From Monosiga brevicollis MX1 (lineage: Eukaryota > Opisthokonta > Choanoflagellata > Craspedida > Salpingoecidae), in contig NW_001865065.1 in the NCBI RefSeq assembly GCF_000002865.3, forward strand, positions 360,812 to 424,811: a stretch of 64,000 bases of DNA. The letters are read 5' to 3'. The notes beneath the pieces were generated by a model that saw only the letters and a list, made by a program, of their open reading frames with translations, had not been told where the DNA came from and did not search any database. The position numbers and the translations under genes were made by a program. The number at the start of each line of letters is the position of its first letter. The stretch's first letter is position 1. Of the stretch, positions 4,194 to 61,100 are shown one piece after another.

Positions 4194-5155
4194 GCTGATG
4201 GTCTATGGGTGTTCGTGTTCGCGTGTGCGCGTATATGTATGTGCGATGGAGGCACAAAGCACAGCCAGACGACCGCTGCATGGACGCACGGGCCCAGCCA
4301 GCCATGGTCGAGAGGATGAGAAATTCATATGCCTTGACACACTGCGCGATGATACAGCGATACAAAAGACGGCACAACTCATATGCAAACTGCAATTTCT
4401 CCTCAAGCAACAAAGGCGAGCTGATATAACCACACCGCCATTGCCAACAGCACCGACGTCGCTGCCATTTCAGCCGCCGCTCACCTCAACACAAACGGGA
4501 AAAATCCAAACAACAAGCACACGTCTTCATCAAAAGATCAACGTGCTTTGTTTCCAACATATGTTATCAACACAATCTCCTTTGTCAGATTTTATCGGTC
4601 TTGTTTTTGTCAGACAAGTGACCGACTTTGCGCGGACGGCGAACCGGACGAACTCATGTGTCCGCCGGGGACTGCCTTGATGGGTGTGGTCTTGAGTCCA
4701 CTTGCGGATCGGACATGAAGCGGGAATGATAATATGAAGGCACAGGGTGGTGAAGAGCTCGCAAGTATGTGTGTGGAACGGGATTTTGTTCAGGCTTTGT
4801 GGTCCACCACCAGGAGGAGAAGATCGGGGTGCGTGGAGGACGACACAAATTTTGAAGCGAGAAGCCCAGCCTCAGCGCTCGGTGCAGGCCGGACGTTGAT
4901 AGGCTTCAGTATCACTGACTGGCGCCACTCGCACCCCCCCCCTTACTACCGATTGGTCCTCGCCGAGGGTGCATTGGGTGCAACCCTACCCGATCCGCTG
5001 TGCTCTTCTGTTCCTGGGTGGTCAGTCTGCCCCTCTGGCGAATAGAGCTGGCTGAAGGCGCAATGGCAAGCAAGCAGGCCAGCTAGGGTTGACAAACCGG
5101 GAACCCGTCTCGTCGCGCGAGTAGGCGTCGGCTGCGCCTTTGCCCCGCAACTGCC
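4194..5155. promoter_or_regulatory. Divergent intergenic region, RPB10 / GPCR-kinase
   Basis: 962-bp spacer between two divergently transcribed genes, so it should contain both promoters. I could not pick out a TATA box or a recognisable factor site with confidence. A short C-run occurs near 4933-4942. Frames here are not supported as genes. Confidence 0.4.
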
Positions 5156-6619
5156 ATGGCGCCGTGCCGTCGGAACGACATGCCTTCCTTGAATGCACCC
5201 CGCTGGGCTCACCCGCTTCTGTTACTCCTCGGACTCGCTTTGATTGAGCCATGGGCCGAGCTGGGTGTGGCCGGGACTTGCCTTGAGAGCATCGGTCCAC
5301 ACGGCCTGACGTGGCCCGCCACCTCGTCTGGGCGCGCCACAACTCTACCTTGCCCGTCACCACACACAGGCAGTGCAAGTCGCAGCTGTTGTGCATCCGC
5401 CCAGCAGGCCACCACTCTCTGTCTGCTGCAGGCCTGGAGTGAGCCATCCTACGCTCAATGCGCCATCCCTAGCCTTGAGGGTTGGTCCAGTGACTGGGCA
5501 ACGGGCGCGCCCACGAGTGCAGCCGCTCGCCGCCAACGGCTTGCCGGTGCCGCCACCATTGTTGCCAGCAGCGCCTTGCCCCTTGGTTCAACTGACGTGA
5601 CAGAAATTCTCCGCTTGGTGCAACGCGCCTCCACTGCCATCGATGCCTCCGCCGCCGCCAATCTTACCATCGCAGATCTCGAGACGCACCTCGACCTTTT
5701 CGACGCTCTTCTTCAGGCTGACTGGAAGATCCCTGATCCAGACGCGGGGTCTACACAGATGGCCCAAGTCTATGTGCAACTGGCACATGCGCTGTTTCTT
5801 GCTCCGAACACAGCCCTGGCATCCCCAGAGCCCTGGGCGTGGCACGCAGCCGCCGTCCAGGCTGCCCTTCTGATGGGGCCCGCTCCAGAGCTGATGACTA
5901 CTGGTGACCACTTTGTTTTAAGCTGGGCCCCCAATGCAACGCTCGCCATCGACAACGCGAAAACATTTGACATGACTGTCCTCACGCAGTGGACACTGGC
6001 TGCGACGGAAAATGGAACCACGCCGACGCCATCGTCAACCACCTCCAAGGCTTTGACAGAGGAAAGCATGCAGTTGGCCCTGTGCTTGGCAGCCTATCTA
6101 CCCGCCAGTAACCCCAACGGTCGCCATCACATCTTTCCCACCGTGCTTTTTGATGCAAATCAGCCCGGGGGTTTGACTGCAGGCCCGGTTGATGTTCAGT
6201 ATAATGTGGCAAGCTTGTGGGGCCCGCTGCAGCGCCAGGATCAGGCTCACCAGGCGCTATTGCGCCTCATCTTGTCCATCGATCCACCCACCCATGGCCT
6301 TGCATTAGACCTGGTGGACCTGCAGATGAGCGCAATACAAACAACCAACAACACCCAGATCATCAATCTCACCCTCGCCGTCAATGGTACCACAGTCTTG
6401 GCCGTCCCTGCACAGGCCAAGTGTGAGGCAGATGTTGCATGTACCCTGGACATCAACCTGAGTGCCGGGCTTTGGACTTGTCATTGCCAGCTGCAACCCA
6501 GTAGTGTTGCCCTGACGCTTACCACGACAGCACCCGTCGCCAACACTGCCCCAGCTCGTGCCTACAACCGCATTGACCACGCTCTTGCTGGTTAGTTTTT
6601 GTTTGTTCGTTTCGTTCTT

Positions 6620-18261: not shown

Positions 18262-21200
18262 TGACGGCACAGCTTCGCTCCGCTTCAGGTGAGTCACATG
18301 GGTTCACCCCAGGGGTCCTGCAATTGCCGAAGCTGACCTCATCATCGCATTGGGATGCTGCATCTAGGAGTTGTGCCCTTGGATGTGCGAACACAGCGCT
18401 ATGTGTTCGTCGGGACAGATGCAGGCAGCTGTCATATCCCCTTGAGTAGTCGGTCGTGCGGCGCCAAGCATGCTCGCATTGGCTTTTTGGGACAGAAGCG
18501 CGCGCTTGCCGTCGAAGATCTCGCCACAACCACAGGTAGGCTGACCGTTCCAAGCGCGCCCCTGGCTGCTGCAAGCTCGCCTCAACCTTGTCTCTGGGCT
18601 CACGACCATGGCAGGTACATATGTCAACGGGCGTCGAGTAAAGGGGCGGGAGCCTCTTGGTCATGGCGATGCACTTCGCTTTGGAAGTGATGCGCATACG
18701 CTGCGAGTTGAGCTGAATGCCAATGAAACCTTTCCCGCTGACACGGAGGACGCGGGCCTTCCTCGACCAACCTCGACCGTCAACACACGGCGCAACAGTG
18801 GCATTGAGCGACCCCGCCTCCGTTCCTCCCGCAGCACCCGAAACCATGGTCCCTCGGAAAGCCTGAATGCATCTCGTCGCCAGATGCAAGTGCAATTTGC
18901 CGAGCAGCCCGTCCACCGTTCCACGTCCAGCACCACCGACCCGTGCGTTTTGGCTGATAGGTCTTGGTCGGCATGGCTCCCTGAATGATTTCTTGACGTA
19001 AACACCTCACAACACACATGCCATGCACCTGGTCTGTCACGCCAACAGCTCAAAGAGTGATACCGCACTCTCGCATCGACGGGATAGCATTGATAGCCTT
19101 GGCAGTGTCGAGTCAGATGCCCACTCCGTTCAACAGGTATGCCACGGCCATGCAACTCCATCTCACCGAGGCGCGCGTACACATTAATCGGCCTTTCAAC
19201 CCAAGCGAGCTGCCTTGTGCGAATGTCTCATGGCAAGCGTCTGGTGCTTTTCCATTAGCCGCAGCCACAGCCCCCCCCACAGGATATGAATCGCACGCGA
19301 CGACGCTCGTCGCGGACTTACATCACTCGGTCTCGCCATGAGCGAGATGCGCCAAGCAGCGAGCATGACCATGGCCACACCCGTAGTCACAGCCGAGGCC
19401 GCAACCAAGGACATCACCGCCATTCAAGCACTAGCCGAAGCCCTAGCCCTGACAAAAGTAATGGACCAAGCCATGCCCCGCGTCACCGCAGCTCGCGTCG
19501 CAAAAGTGATCGCAGTCCTAGCCGCAGCCCGAGTCCCGCACGCCGCTCGCGTCGCGAGCGCGCATGGCCGGTCAAGGTTCCTTATTCCGACGCCTCAGAA
19601 ACCTCTGATCGCAAAGGGCCGACCACCAAGACGGCTGCCAGTGACAGAAACGAGGTTCAAGCACCCAGAGCGCCTTGTTTAAGTGACGGGGCGGTGGCTC
19701 GGCACAATCACGCCACCCACGAGCTGGTACAGCGCCTCCAGGCTGCCACAACACAACTGACCGAGCTCTTTCACAACGCCAAACTGCGCCTGCCCAGCCA
19801 TCTCCAGCACTCGCTCAACGGCGTCACTTCGCTGGACGCCAGCAGCTTGCTGGTCACCCCGATCGATGGGCTGGGCGAGGTCCTCAATACCTGTGCAAGC
19901 GCAGCTGCTGCTCTGTCCGTTGGCCTGACACAAGCCAGTCGCCAGCTCAAACGGGACCAATCAGCACAGCAAGAGGCTTCGGATAGTACTCGGCAGTTGG
20001 ACAAGCGCCTGCGTTCTGCTACCGAAGAGGTGCAGCACTTGCAGGCCGACCTGGCGCTTGCCCAACGTGAGCGAGACCAAGCACAAGCCGCTTTGACCGA
20101 GGCTAAGGAAAAGACTAAGAGCTATCGTGTCAAGCTTCTTGATCTCAAGCAAACTACCACCTCTTCCTTGGCCGAATGGGAGACTGAGCGGCAAAGCTTC
20201 AACCAGGAGCGCCAACGCCTCGTGGCGGAGCGCGATGATCTCACTCAACAACTGCGTAGCCTGCGCCTCGATCAGGACAACACTGAGAAGCGGGCACAGC
20301 GCCTGGAACGCGAGTGCAACGAGGCACGAGCGCGCGTGAGTCGTCGCGATGCCGCTCTGCAACAGCTGGAGCAGCAGCTTCAAGCCAATCGCGCGGCTAC
20401 CGAGCCCATGAGCCTGGCTCCCGTGCGTCCAACGAGTCCGCGACTGGGAGCCGAGCAAATGGAGACCCTGCGTGAGATGCAGGCGGCGCTGCAAGAGCTG
20501 GCAGACGAGCATGCACACTTTCGTCGCGGGACAGCAGTGGCCCTGGATGGTTATGGTGACCAAGTCCGTGCAACCATTAGCCATGTAGTCCAAGCCACCC
20601 GCGCAGGGCAGGAGCAGCGCGCAGCTCAAGACCGAGCCACCCTCACAGCCGAACGGGATCAGCAGCGCCGACTGGCTCGAGCACGCCAACGTGAGCTTGA
20701 GGACGCTCAGCGCGAGTTGGAGGCACTACGTTCGCAGTCTGCAACCAGTGATGCTACGCTTCAGCGCATGCAAGAAAAGCTTAATAATCAGCCTCAGCTG
20801 GTTGAGGAGCTCAAAACGCTGCGCCGATCCCTGGCCAGCTCAGAGGCGGAGAGCCAGGCGCAGAGGGAGCGCCTGGGCCGACTGGAGACTGAGTTGACCA
20901 CGGCTCAACGCGAGGTGTTGAGTCTCCGCACTGACTTGGCACAAGCTCAGAGCAATGTGGATAGCGCAACGCGACCCGTCAGCCCCGTCAACGGCCTTTC
21001 CCACGCCAATGGCGCAGCTTCACAACTACAAGCGCGCCTGTCTGGACTGGAAGGTCAGCTACGCGAGGCAGAGGCTGCGAATGCTCGCGCAGTGGAACAG
21101 ATGTCAGCCGAGCAAATTCGTGCCACGCAAGCTGAGGTAGCGCTGCGTGAACTCGAAGCTCGAATGCAACGAGCCACCACTGAGGCTGATACTGCCGCGG

Positions 21201-23329
21201 AATCTCAGCACCACGAGGTAGCAGAGCTTCGCGCGCGCTTAGTGCAATTGCAGAGTGAGCGGGATGCGCTTGCGGCACAATGCGAAGAACATGCCCATAA
21301 GTGGGCCCTTCTTTGCGATACGCTGCCTGATTTCCTGACCCACTGCCAGCCTGGAATAAACGCGGAGTCCGAGAGCCTCGTGATTCAGGGCCTGCACGAT
21401 TGGTCCCAGGCTTTGAGTCTGCGTGAAATGGTGGTAGTGGCGCGCGAGCAGGACGTGGCAGCACTGGAGCAACATGCAAGCAGCTTGCTAATGGCAGAGT
21501 CAAGTTCGTGTGCTGAGCTGACCGCCACGCTGCACGATCGGGACAACGCGATTGCTGTGCTGCAGCAACAAATGACAACGCTGCATGCTAGCCTGGCCGA
21601 AACCGAAGCGGCTCTGGAATCGTGCCGTGCAGGACCTGATGCGGCCCTTATGCAAGCTTACATGGAACGTGAGGCCGCTCAGCGAGCCCAGGCCACCGCT
21701 GAAGCTAGCTGTGCTCTAAAGCAGCGAGAGCTGGATGACCTGTACGTCGAGCAGACCAATTTGCAAACGCAGCTGAAGACTGCAAATGAGGAAGTGCAGC
21801 GACTTTGCGAACAGTTGTCGGCGGCTCAACGCGAAATCGCCTCAACCCAAGACCACACCGCTGCGCAACAGCTCGAATTAAATACCAGCGAGTCAGCGCT
21901 GAAGCAGGCTCGTGAACAGTTGGCTTTGAGCGCAACAGAACAAGTCGAACTCACGGCGAAGCAGCAAGCTTTGCTTGTTCAGATCGAGGAGTTGACTGCG
22001 GCGATGAACGAGGCAGCTGCAAACCGGAATGCCCTGCAAAGTGACCTGGAAGGGGCAGAAGCGGTGCAAGCCACGCTTCAAGCTCAGGTGGACAAATTGT
22101 TGGCCGCGCAGGAAGCCTCGCACGCGGACGACGCCTCGGCACATGCCCAGCTGCTCGCCGAGCGTGATGCAGCGCTCGAGGCCTGTGCCGAGGCACAAGC
22201 AAAGCTAGCCATTACCCGGGCCAAGCAAACAGAAGTTATTGCCAGGTGCGAGGAATGGCGTGCCCGAGCGGAAGATCTTGATAACATGACAACCGCACGC
22301 GCTGAGTTGGAGGCGAAAGTCGCGGCCCTCACAGCTGAGCGAGAGGCTGCAGCCGCGGCACTTGCGGGGCAACAAAACGATCAAGAACGGCAGCAAGCAC
22401 AGTTTAACGCCGAGCATTCTACTATGGTGGCACGCTTGGAGGCAGTTGAGCAAGAGCATGCCGAGCTTCAAACGCTGCATTCCGAGCTGGAGGCGGGCTT
22501 ACGGGAGGCCCAAGAAGGCCTGAGAGAACGAGGCGCTTGGACAAAGCTGCAAGCAGAGGCTATGCGGGGTCAGGTTGAAGCCCTGCAGCGCGGGTTGGAA
22601 CAAACTACGGAAAATTTGACGCGAGCAAGGCGCGAGCGAGATGAATGGCGCGACCAGTGCCAGCGGGGTGCCAAGGAAGTCCAAGTACAGCGTGCTCTGG
22701 CAGACCAGTTACAAGCACGCCTGGATCAAGCCCTGCAGCACGTGAATCAAGCTACGCGTGAGCAAGCACTTGTTCGGCGAGACCTTGTTGAGGTGTGTCC
22801 ATTTTACCCCCCTCTCGCTTTTGTATCTTTACAAGTGAAGAGCAATTTCATTTTCCAGCGTCCAGAGCTCGCATCCTTGTGTTGTAGCCCCACATTTCTC
22901 ACTGAGTCATGAAAAATGCCTGTTTGACTGCTCCTAGGTGGCTTCGAAGCTGTGCTGCGAGCCTGATGGCGTACTTGAGCGCCTGGAAGGTATGTAGACG
23001 CCTTGTCCGGGCCTGGCCAGCTCGTCTTCAGCCGCTTACAGCAGCCACGTTCGTGGACGTGCGTGTCGCATACAGAACGATTCGCCCAAGCCGCTAGCGT
23101 CGCGGAGCGCTTGACAGAGGCTGAGAACCGGTACGCCTGAGAAACTCATCAAAAATGCGCACCCGCTGGTGGCATCTGGCTCACCGGGCTGACTCTGCCC
23201 CACGCGTTTGCTGCATGTAGCAACAATCTTTTGGTGGTCCAACTGGAACGCGTCCAGCGACAGTTACAACACATGCAAGAGCAACAAGACTGGACATTGG
23301 TAAGCAGCGCGATGCGCGGCAAGTCCTAA
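18262..23329 (+). CDS. FHA-domain plus long coiled-coil protein (FHAD1-like)
   Basis: Starts MTAQLRSAS in a 28-nt exon (18262-18289). Exons 18368-18535 and 18615-18942 encode a forkhead-associated (phosphothreonine-binding) domain: FVGTDAGSCHIPLSSRSC, KHARIGFL, TTGTYVNGRRVKGREPLGHGDALRFG; the TYVNG and GD..RFG signatures are clear. An 88-nt exon (19049-19136) and a very long exon (19283-22792) follow. The latter opens with an Arg/Ser-rich stretch and then gives about 1,100 residues of heptad-like, Glu/Gln/Ala/Leu-rich coiled coil. Short final exons (for example VASKLCCEPDGVLERLE and RFAQAASVAERLTEAENR) extend the coil to the stop at 23329. An N-terminal FHA followed by a long coil recalls animal FHAD1, but coils align poorly, so homology is inferred from architecture. 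Likely a scaffold with a phospho-dependent partner. Confidence 0.85.
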
Positions 23330-29232: not shown

Positions 29233-30675
29233 ATGGCAGGAAACATGAATCATGCTAGCGCTAGTGATGAGGCCCTCGCGGCCCAGGTTTTGAATTTGCT
29301 GCCTTTGCACGAAGAACATCAACCGATGAAGCCAGTGCACTTGGCCCAGGAATTGGGTGTCTCTAGACCCGACGTCAATCGCGTGCTTCACCATGTGCTT
29401 CAAGTCCGCGGACAAGCCGAAAGCCCGGTGCCTGGGCGTTGGCAGCGGACTCTAGCAACTGCGCCCGACAGAGGGGAGCCTGACATTCGGCCATGGGTGC
29501 TAGATTCCCAAGCGACGACGCCACCAGATGCGCTCTCCTTGGCTGCTACAGCGCCATGCGTGGTCCGGTCATCGCTCATCAATCCAGCCTCAGCAGCACC
29601 TTCAACTACAGCGCAGCCTACTGCATCAGTATCGGGTCCGGATGCAACCACCCCCTTTGCACCTGCAGCTGCCAATCACGGACCCCACAAGTCGGCCGTG
29701 AGTGAGCTTAACGAGATCTTTGCTCAACCAAATCTGCCAAAAGTAGTCTACTCAGACCACAATTCGGGAGCTGGTATGTTCAAATACACTGCTCAGCTTA
29801 CTAGCCTACCACCTCGATGCTCTACATCGCTGCCAATGCGCTCCAAGAAAATGGCCAAGGAGGCTGCTGCCCAGGAACTTTTGAGCCACTTGGCGAATGA
29901 TCTCAGCTGGAGGGAGTTCGCTACGGATGAAATGCACAAACGGATTTGTCAAGCGCACTTTGAGTTGCCTACGCGTGGGCGCCATCTACAACTTGGCAAT
30001 CGCTACATTTGGGGCACCGAGGGTGAGCCCTCACGTGAGGAGACGGCCCTGATTACCGTGGAGGCCAAGAGCGGACCAGATCCCGAGAAGCCGCACACAC
30101 GCAAGTCCTTTCACAGGTGCATCAATACATATTTCTCTGAAACGGTGTGCGCGTTTTACAATTGCTACGGCAAGCGCCAGCGACCTTTTCAATTTCGACT
30201 CGTGTACGGAGTGCATGACAAGGACTTTATCATGAATGGTGTCCGAATTGCTCATAAAGAGTTCCCGGATGGCACAGACCCTCAGGACAGCTTTGACGAC
30301 GCCATGAAAAAGAAGATCACGGCGCGACTTGAGAGCACGATCGACATGTCCCATTCCATCGATGTGGCGACACATGTCTACACATTACAAAAGGCTGAAG
30401 ATTATAACATTTATTTGATCGAGGTCGTCTTCCAACACCGCAATCCCACCAATGCGACCATGCTGGCCCGAGTCGTAACAAACCGTGGCAACCCCGAGGA
30501 GAAGATCGAATTCTATACGCGTCGCGATGGAAGCAACTATCTGCTACAAAGGGAGCACGTGATTCAGCAGGCAAACCAAGTCCGGGCTGAAACGCCAGCC
30601 AATGGGTGTCCAGCTTGGGTGCAAGCGCTTTGCGAGGAACAAGCAAGCGAGGCCATGGCACCCTCGTCTGAGTGA
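29233..30675 (+). CDS. Z-alpha-like / dsRNA-binding / Schlafen AlbA_2-like protein
   Basis: Single uninterrupted 480-codon frame from the ATG at 29233. Residues about 12-74 resemble the Z-alpha winged helix of ADAR1, PKZ and poxvirus E3: HLAQELGVSRPDVNRVLHHV followed by PVPGRW. Asn49, Arg50 and Trp70 match the Z-DNA/Z-RNA contact residues, while the usual Tyr is His54. Residues 154-221 read as a double-stranded-RNA-binding domain (SELNEIFAQPNLPKVVY, then KKMAKEAAAQELLSHL). Residues about 263-446 resemble the Schlafen/AlbA_2 fold: VEAKS, SETVCAFYNCYG, RLVYGVHDKD, YLIEVVFQ and FYTRRDGSNYLL. Glu277, Lys279 and Asp329 fit its conserved polar positions; one acidic residue of the Schlafen nuclease triad is not obvious. 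There is no adenosine deaminase domain, so it is not ADAR. Function is inferred: nucleic-acid sensing coupled to an RNase or ATPase-like effector. Having no intron is unusual here. Confidence 0.82.
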   Translation: MAGNMNHASASDEALAAQVLNLLPLHEEHQPMKPVHLAQELGVSRPDVNRVLHHVLQVRGQAESPVPGRWQRTLATAPDRGEPDIRPWVLDSQATTPPDALSLAATAPCVVRSSLINPASAAPSTTAQPTASVSGPDATTPFAPAAANHGPHKSAVSELNEIFAQPNLPKVVYSDHNSGAGMFKYTAQLTSLPPRCSTSLPMRSKKMAKEAAAQELLSHLANDLSWREFATDEMHKRICQAHFELPTRGRHLQLGNRYIWGTEGEPSREETALITVEAKSGPDPEKPHTRKSFHRCINTYFSETVCAFYNCYGKRQRPFQFRLVYGVHDKDFIMNGVRIAHKEFPDGTDPQDSFDDAMKKKITARLESTIDMSHSIDVATHVYTLQKAEDYNIYLIEVVFQHRNPTNATMLARVVTNRGNPEEKIEFYTRRDGSNYLLQREHVIQQANQVRAETPANGCPAWVQALCEEQASEAMAPSSE

Positions 30676-58163: not shown

Positions 58164-61100
58164 ATGGTACGTTGCTTGTCTCACCGGGGCGGCGGCGGCT
58201 CGGCTGGCCGGGCTGCCGTCAAACATACATACACACAACACACACACACATCAGACCTTCTTCACCTGGATCAAGGCTGCCAAAAGCTGTTGCAAACCAT
58301 GCGGACTGCCGGCAAGCCGCGTCAATGTCTGGACAGTACCCCTGCTCCGATCGGGTTATAATTTGAGACACGGCCGTGAACGGATGTTCCGCCATAGCGC
58401 CGCGTAGCTCGTCATGATCGAAAAAAGTCGGTGGCTGGGCTCAGATAGGCGTGGCATCCAGGCTGCAAGGATGTTGCGGCCGGACATGATCCGAGCGTCA
58501 CATCCCGCGCTTCCAGAGGTGCCAAAGCTATCTGATTCACTTCCACGTGGGAAAGGGCCGAGCTAGTCAAGCATGGCAGCATTGCTACATGCAGCATCGT
58601 CATGCCACCACATGAAGGGCATGCCATACACTCCCCACTCCCTTTACACTTGATCCTCGCTTCCCCTTGCCGGCAGTCGCTCATGAAGTTATCCTTGTTT
58701 TTTTTTCCCCAGGTGAACTTTACGGTCGACCAGATCCGCGCGATCATGGACAAGCGGCATAACATCCGCAACATGTCCGTGATTGCGCACGTGGACCACG
58801 GCAAGTCCACGTTGACGGACTCCCTCGTCTCCAAGGCCGGTATCATTGCCGGTGCCAAGGCCGGTGAGACTCGCTTCACTGACACGCGTCAGGACGAGCA
58901 GGATCGCTGCATTACCATCAAGTCCACTGCCATCTCCCTCTACTACGAGCTGGCTGAGGAGGACATGAAGTGGGTCAAGCAGACCTCCGATGGCAACGCT
59001 TTCCTTATCAACTTGATCGACTCGCCCGGACACGTTGACTTCTCCTCGGAGGTGACTGCCGCCCTCCGTGTGACCGACGGTGCCCTCGTCGTCGTCGATG
59101 CCGTCTCTGGCGTCTGCGTCCAGACTGAGACCGTGCTGCGTCAGGCCATCGCCGAGCGCATCAAACCCGTCCTCTTCCTCAACAAGATGGACCGTGCTCT
59201 TCTCGAGCTCCAGCTCGAGCAGGAGGATCTCTTCCAGACCTTCCGTCGCATTGTCGAGAGCATCAACGTCATCATTGCCACCTACGGTGATGACGAGGGA
59301 CCCATGGGCCAGATCCAGGTCGATGTCTCCGCTGGTACCGTCGGCTTCGGCTCTGGTCTCCACGGCTGGGCCTTCACCCTGAAGCAGTTCGCCACCATGT
59401 ATGCCTCCAAGTTTGGCATTGAGGTTGACAAGCTCATGAAGCGCCTTTGGGGCGACCAGTTCTTCAACGCCAAGGAGAAGAAGTGGCGCAAGAACGGTGA
59501 TGACTCGTCTTACGTCCGTGGCTTCAACATGTTTGTCCTGGACCCCATCTTCAAGGTCTTCGACTCTGTCATGAACTTCAAGAAGGACGACACTGCCAAG
59601 CTCATCACCAAGCTCGGCATCAAGCTCTCCGCCGATGAGAAGGAGCTTGAGGGCAAGCCCCTCATGAAGGCCATGATGCGCCGCTGGTTGCCTGCCGGTG
59701 ATGCCATGCTTGAGATGATCACCATCCACTTGCCTTCCCCCGTCACCGCCCAGAACTACCGTATGGAGATGCTGTACGAGGGTCCTCATGACGATGCCGC
59801 CGCTCTTGGTATCAAGAACTGCGACCCCGAGGCTCCTCTGATGATGTACGTCTCGAAGATGGTCCCCACCACCGACAAGGGCCGCTTCTATGCTTTCGGC
59901 CGTGTCTACTCTGGCAAGGTCGCCACTGGCATGAAGGCCCGCATCATGGGCCCCAACTTCGTTGTTGGCAAGAAGGATGATCTCTTTGTCAAGACCATCC
60001 AGCGTACCATCCTGATGATGGGTCGCTTCATCGAGCCCATTGAGGATGTTCCTTGCGGTAACATCTGCGGTCTCGTCGGTGTGGATCAGTTCCTTGTCAA
60101 GACTGGTACTCTGACCAGCTTCGATGGTGCCCACAACATGAAGGTCATGAAGTTCTCCGTGTCCCCCGTCGTGCGCGTTGCCGTCGAGTGCAAGAACCCC
60201 TCCGATCTGCCCAAGCTCGTCGAGGGTCTCAAGCGTCTGGCCAAGTCTGGTGAGTTTTTTCTTTGGGTGTTTCTCATGTTTGCTCTGTCGAGGGGCTGCT
60301 TTGTGGCGCGGTGATGCAAACAAAACACTTAGGACACCTTCTGAATCCTTGTGATTGTGTTGAGTGCTTGTTATTCACACTGCCTGAGCTCCACATTGCC
60401 TGTGCCTCGACAATGCTTTTTGTCCCGCTTCCGAGCTTATCTGTCGTCCCTGCTCCTACACGCGAATGGTTACAAACGCTTGTTTGTCCGCACAATTGCT
60501 TTGCTCATAAATATCGGTTCTCTTGATACGTAGACCCCATGGTCCAGTGCATCATTGAGGAGTCTGGCGAGCACATCGTTGCCGGTGCTGGTGAGCTCCA
60601 TCTCGAGATTTGCCTCAAGGATCTCGAGGAGGATCACGCTGGTATTCCCCTCAAGAAGTCCGACCCCGTCGTCTCTTACCGTGAGACCGTCGATGACGAG
60701 TCGGAGATTATGTGCCTGTCCAAGTCCCCCAACAAGCACAACCGTCTGTTCATGAAGGCTCGCCCCTTGAGTGACGGTCTGGCCGAGGCCATCGATGATG
60801 GCAAGGTCAGCGCCAAGGACGATCCCAAGACCCGTGGCCGCTTCCTCGCCGATAACTTCGAGTGGGACGTCACAGAGGCTCGCAAGATCTGGTGCTTTGG
60901 CCCTGAGGGCACTGGCCCCAACGTCATCGTCGATGTCTCCAAGGGTGTTCAGGTGTGTTCCACGCTCCGACTGTGATTGACCTGTTTGGTTTATTTGATC
61001 GCCAATGTGTTCTTTCTTTGTCTTTTGTTGTGTGGACGCCATTCGAGTGCATGTTGAACGTATCAATGACGAAACCCTGTTTCGTGAGGACATCCTTTGA

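Follow-up and report, generated by a model that had tools for sequence, protein, structure and literature searches.

A predicted Monosiga brevicollis protein with Z-alpha-like, dsRNA-binding and AlbA_2-type domains: a tentative candidate for an RNA-tethered effector

What kind of protein is encoded by an intact reading frame of the choanoflagellate Monosiga brevicollis MX1 whose predicted domains follow the layout of ADAR1 but end in a Schlafen-type module instead of a deaminase? The frame lies on the forward strand of contig NW_001865065.1 within a stretch of 64,000 nucleotides (positions 360,812 to 424,811), called the window here, and positions are given in the numbering of the window. Sequence comparison supports an order of a Z-alpha-like helix-turn-helix, a low-complexity linker, a double-stranded RNA (dsRNA)-binding domain (dsRBD) and an AlbA_2 domain (Table 1). 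The reading preferred here, tentatively and at somewhat less than even confidence, is that of a host protein in which an AlbA_2 effector would be tethered to dsRNA or Z-RNA. The Pfam matches of all three domains fall below the curated cut-offs, which are 21 bits for z-alpha, 23 bits for dsrm and 25.3 bits for SLFN_AlbA_2.

The open frame is real and its length is not due to chance. It runs intact for 480 amino acids from an ATG at 29233 to a stop codon at 30673–30675, exactly where the preliminary description of this DNA had placed it, and the stop-to-stop run around it spans 502 codons. The chance control for frame length consisted of first-order Markov sequences of 5 kb each, 400 modelled on the flanks and 400 on the frame; their longest stop-free runs were 283 and 383 codons respectively, and none of the 800 reached 502. 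The start codon has an A at -3 and a G at +4. The G+C content at codon positions one, two and three is 0.60, 0.46 and 0.57, and judged against the adjacent aminotransferase exon (0.64, 0.42 and 0.71) the frame resembles coding sequence whose bias at the third position is less marked.

Table 1. Features of the 480-amino-acid frame, in window coordinates
Feature	Position	Strand	Basis
Whole open frame, 480 amino acids, read as a single exon	29233..30675	+	Frame reading and sequence
Z-alpha-like helix-turn-helix domain, about residues 11–74	29263..29454	+	PDB phmmer, VIA-align, Pfam, residues
Ala/Pro/Ser/Thr-rich linker, about residues 75–149	29455..29679	+	Sequence and low-confidence model
dsRNA-binding domain, residues 155–220, KKxAK = K205, K206, K209	29695..29892	+	Pfam dsrm
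AlbA_2 (Schlafen/SAMD9-type) domain, about residues 263–436; candidate acids E270, E277, D329, with K279	30019..30540	+	Pfam, hhalign, MAFFT

The N-terminal Z-alpha-like domain is well indicated by sequence, though sub-threshold. Pfam z-alpha matches residues 16–56 of the whole protein with an E-value of 0.19 (12.2 bits) and the isolated N-terminal fragment with an E-value of 0.0069 (16.9 bits). In a PDB sequence search with residues 31–77, eight of the 12 matches are Z-alpha-type chains (ORF112, ADAR1), and the ORF112 Z-alpha core shares 12 of 25 residues with the protein, the N and R among them. In ADAR1 numbering, N49, R50 and W70 occupy the positions of Asn173, Arg174 and Trp195; the N and R are in register with ORF112, and the ADAR1 matches run beyond W70. 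An ungapped count back from W70 puts P67 at Pro192 and Gly68 in place of Pro193, with P65 close by. The residues singled out in the preliminary description (N49, R50, W70, the string PVPGRW and a His in place of Tyr) were all located, as N49, R50, H53, P65, P67 and W70. By VIA-align, the structural matches listed for the model of this domain, which is too poor to confirm a fold, include a superposition on the Z-alpha domain of PKZ (4kmf) as well as IscR, IclR and DeoR.

These last entries bear on an alternative in which the N-terminal domain is a generic winged helix of the MarR or IclR kind that binds ordinary dsRNA or DNA and is unrelated to the Z form. Pfam MarR_2 matches the same stretch with an E-value of 0.1 in the whole protein and 0.0042 in the isolated fragment, the latter ahead of z-alpha, and the position of Tyr177 in helix 3 of ADAR1, where an important Tyr belongs, holds His53. 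A generic domain is nevertheless considered unlikely in view of the share of ORF112 and ADAR1 chains among the PDB matches, the identity to the ORF112 core and a wing that carries P65, P67 and W70. The ADAR1 Z-beta domain, which is without the key Tyr, fails to bind Z-DNA (PMC10523160). Winged helices are described as binding Z nucleic acids only with the key residues present, bacterial candidates without both N173 and Y177 are termed 'Z-alpha-like', and some coral candidate Z-alpha domains have Phe at the Tyr177 position (PMC11298590). Because the key Tyr is His53, the N-terminal domain is named only Z-alpha-like here. The earlier proposal of a Z-form sensor joined to an RNase is upheld in part: the Asn, Arg and Trp contacts are retained, while His replaces the Tyr.

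Following the N-terminal domain, residue blocks within 71–150 of the predicted model have a predicted local distance difference test (pLDDT) score of 27–44, and there is no helix or strand between residues 76 and 154. The dsRBD after this linker is probable, with a Pfam dsrm E-value of 0.0054 on the whole protein and 1.6e-4 on the isolated fragment (22.6 bits, 0.4 under the cut-off), where 66 of 66 profile positions are covered. Residues 205–209 read KKMAK and conform to the KKxAK motif, which marks the start of dsRBD helix 2. The dsRBD fragment had no match among PDB sequences at E ≤ 10, and in a genome-wide dsrm search the protein was the weakest of five matches (E-value 0.0138).

The C-terminal AlbA_2 domain is also well indicated by profile comparison, though sub-threshold. 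SLFN_AlbA_2 is the best Pfam family on the whole protein (residues 290–436, E-value 0.0041), and on the isolated fragment it has an E-value of 4.9e-4 (21.1 bits), with the next family at 0.033. A first custom profile, made from four Schlafen chains plus one bacterial sequence, had failed, and a broader AlbA_2 profile was then built as a second attempt. The broader profile contains 13 plasmid and phage-contig sequences (L011–L016, L018, L019, L021, L022 and L024–L026), of which the plasmid sequence L011 is SLFN_AlbA_2 by Pfam (E-value 4.5e-18); the near-duplicate or short L017, L020 and L023 were left out, and the row for L014 stops after 90 residues and was entered that way. By hhalign, this profile aligned to residues 301–366 of the fragment with an E-value of 7.2e-4 (score 29.04, probability 26%) and to the whole protein with an E-value of 0.0015 (probability 16%). 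Neither control reached 29.04: the top score was 23.82 among 1000 shuffles and 26.98 among 615 window frames, which served as decoys of at least 60 codons trimmed to 400 residues.

Several results weigh against the tethered-effector reading, His53 being one of them. The first, Schlafen-based profile scored 1.0 bit and was outscored by several of 2000 shuffles. AlphaFold2 models built without relatives had pLDDT values of 42 and 43, too poor to confirm any fold, and the structural matches listed for them were unrelated, with no AlbA_2 chain among them. A homologue search with the whole protein, limited to scoring the 8000 candidates with the most words in common, recovered nothing beyond the query. 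The C-terminal fragment also matched nothing among PDB sequences. The three domains put forward earlier are upheld by sequence; structural agreement is weaker for the N-terminal one, and the AlbA_2 fold is left unconfirmed by the models. The C-terminal domain could be something other than AlbA_2, its sub-threshold matches being coincidental and the protein pairing Z-alpha-like and dsRBD parts with another C-terminal fold. This is quite improbable, as two differently built AlbA_2 profiles agree and the top-scoring decoy frame aligns to another, C-terminal part of the profile.

Residues of a putative active site were located in nine MAFFT runs (three strategies with three start points each). All nine place E270 at the first conserved Glu, D329 at the conserved Asp, and F308, G326, V327 and R430 in conserved AlbA_2 columns. 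The second conserved Glu is met by E277 in the three genafpair runs and by T275 in the other six. The three-carboxylate site of SLFN13 consists of E205, E210 and D248, and the E205A and E210A variants are inactive (PMC5862951). Because E270 and D329, and partly E277, align with these SLFN13-type carboxylates, an AlbA_2 active site is possible.

The chief rival to a tethered effector is a binding-only protein, which would coat or sequester dsRNA or Z-RNA in the manner of poxvirus E3, with an AlbA_2 domain that adds nucleic-acid contact without catalysis. The support for the domains is stronger than that for the active site, the original prediction for the AlbA_2 domain of SAMD9 was DNA/RNA binding (PMC5445408), and SLFN5 and mouse SLFN1 retain the Glu pair yet left the tested tRNAs uncut (PMC5862951). 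The invariable placement of E270 and D329 at active-site columns speaks against it, together with an E277-x-K279 pair that could supply the remaining Glu, and a purely binding role is held to be somewhat improbable.

In the tethered effector, which is the most parsimonious reading, dsRNA, probably including left-handed stretches, would be bound through the Z-alpha-like domain together with the dsRBD, and the AlbA_2 domain would thereby be held at or near the bound RNA. The analogy of SLFN13 and SAMD9 suggests that this effector domain might then cut RNA (the bound dsRNA, tRNA or rRNA), which could halt translation once viral or other foreign dsRNA accumulates. The AlbA_2-type domains of SAMD9/9L and SLFN13 are RNases able to stop translation (SLFN13: PMC5862951). 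We infer the binding of dsRNA and Z-RNA from the predicted domains, and more weakly, from these analogies, RNA cutting, activation by ligand and an antiviral role. The fullest form of the proposal, a previously undescribed one-protein antiviral module of a unicellular eukaryote in which a Z-RNA/dsRNA sensor is fused to a Schlafen/SAMD9-type RNase, is rather doubtful.

The 39.47 Mb genome appears to hold one copy of the gene. The N-domain and C-domain queries returned only the self-match at E ≤ 10, and the whole protein had two other weak matches at E ≤ 1, within residues 61–183, which are mostly low-complexity linker. Homologue searches with residues 222–450 (258 candidates) and residues 10–76 (52 candidates) returned the protein alone. 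No relative was found among viral and genome contigs with a single-protein query, the reach of which is close relatives, and none in a phage search. NCBIfam and PADLOC scans of the protein gave nothing. A plasmid match with an E-value of 0.8 was dropped, its frame showing no AlbA_2-like sequence by eye. The three-domain fusion was not found in the sequence collections searched, which are largely prokaryotic and viral, nor in the open-access papers searched, judged by titles and abstract openings. In the main text of a Z-alpha survey (PMC11298590), the terms choanoflagellate, Schlafen and AlbA do not occur.

Nine window frames were scanned with Pfam, and four matched at E ≤ 0.001 while five did not. 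The four encode an aminotransferase class III (downstream, on the opposite strand), a TCP-1 chaperonin, a PK_Tyr_Ser-Thr protein kinase and a DEAD helicase, and nothing among the nine appears to point to a defence island, virus or contaminant. This context bears on the possibility that the gene is a viral or bacterial acquisition whose product is an inhibitor or relic rather than a host sensor. The gene is intronless and lies beside an aminotransferase gene whose one-frame match spans only part of the profile, and Z-alpha plus dsRBD is the layout of the viral inhibitor E3. Such an origin is nonetheless very unlikely, since the four nameable frames of the nine scanned are ordinary cellular genes and the only match to viral, phage or prokaryotic sequence in the searches above is the weak plasmid one. 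Elsewhere in the window, long frames at 19259–22909 (+, 1217 codons) and 5093–6592 (+, 500 codons) have no Pfam match at E ≤ 0.001, and two long open frames at 58536–60311 (+, 592 codons) and 58692–60374 (-, 561 codons) overlap on opposite strands.

Other genes of the genome carry related domains. Another gene of the Schlafen/AlbA_2 type, which introns appear to split, is located at L004 (G000:C47, about 925371–925475) with the core IAFYNANHDGELLFGVTDDG; it is below the cut-off in the genome search, one exon piece has a Pfam E-value of 3.4e-5 and another piece has no match. Downstream of it is a long frame that is coiled-coil-like by eye. L008:1201-2169 (-) (G000:C13, about 74437) encodes in one frame an RNase III (Pfam 3.4e-27) that also carries two dsrm stretches, and as a query against the genome contigs it found nothing. 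Two dsrm stretches are also present in a frame at L005:1099-1671 (-) (G000:C29, about 338274; Pfam 2.4e-14). The sole A_deamin adenosine-deaminase locus found, G000:C48:318323-319502, is in three pieces and is more likely ADAT1-like than ADAR, because its contig is without a dsrm match. A Piwi-domain search of the genome gave no match, the control of that search being positive in one of 14 genomes.

The protein may bear on the choanoflagellate-type response to viral dsRNA, to which two assayed choanoflagellate cGLRs were insensitive (PMC12424679). If its domains act like their relatives, a single small non-animal protein can combine Z-RNA/dsRNA sensing with Schlafen-type RNA cutting. Were the proposal true, it would represent an independent answer to the problem solved in animals by PKZ, ADAR1 and OAS-RNase L, and a Z-form sensor would have been paired with a translation-blocking effector before, or outside, interferon systems. 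It would also provide a minimal protein for a direct test of sensor–effector coupling.

Among known systems, the Schlafen family (SLFN8/11/12/13/14) shares the AlbA_2-type core AFxN..G..GVxD and the candidate Glu/Asp residues. The second lobe, SWADL and helicase parts that are features of Schlafens show no sign here, sensor-type domains stand in their place, and the Schlafen-based profile misses the protein. SAMD9 and SAMD9L likewise place an AlbA_2 effector (the tRNase domain) within an antiviral protein of several domains. The residues E265, E277 and K279 are spaced as E184, E196 and K198 of SAMD9, perhaps by chance given the many Glu residues nearby, and the SIR2, NTPase, TPR and OB parts of that architecture (PMC5445408) are missing. 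ADAR1 has the same succession of Z-alpha-type domain, dsRBD and C-terminal RNA-acting domain (PMC4323055). The M. brevicollis protein differs from it in ending with an AlbA_2-like domain and no deaminase, in having one Z-type domain and one dsRBD, and in carrying His53 at Tyr177. Poxvirus E3, composed of Z-alpha and dsRBD, has the domain order seen in the first two domains here; it is an inhibitor without an effector, whereas the protein described here continues into a C-terminal domain about 200 residues long and is encoded among cellular genes. PKZ, which combines Z-alpha domains and an eIF2alpha kinase, resembles it in coupling a Z-alpha-type domain with an effector expected to halt translation; the M. 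brevicollis protein has no kinase and carries a predicted dsRBD.
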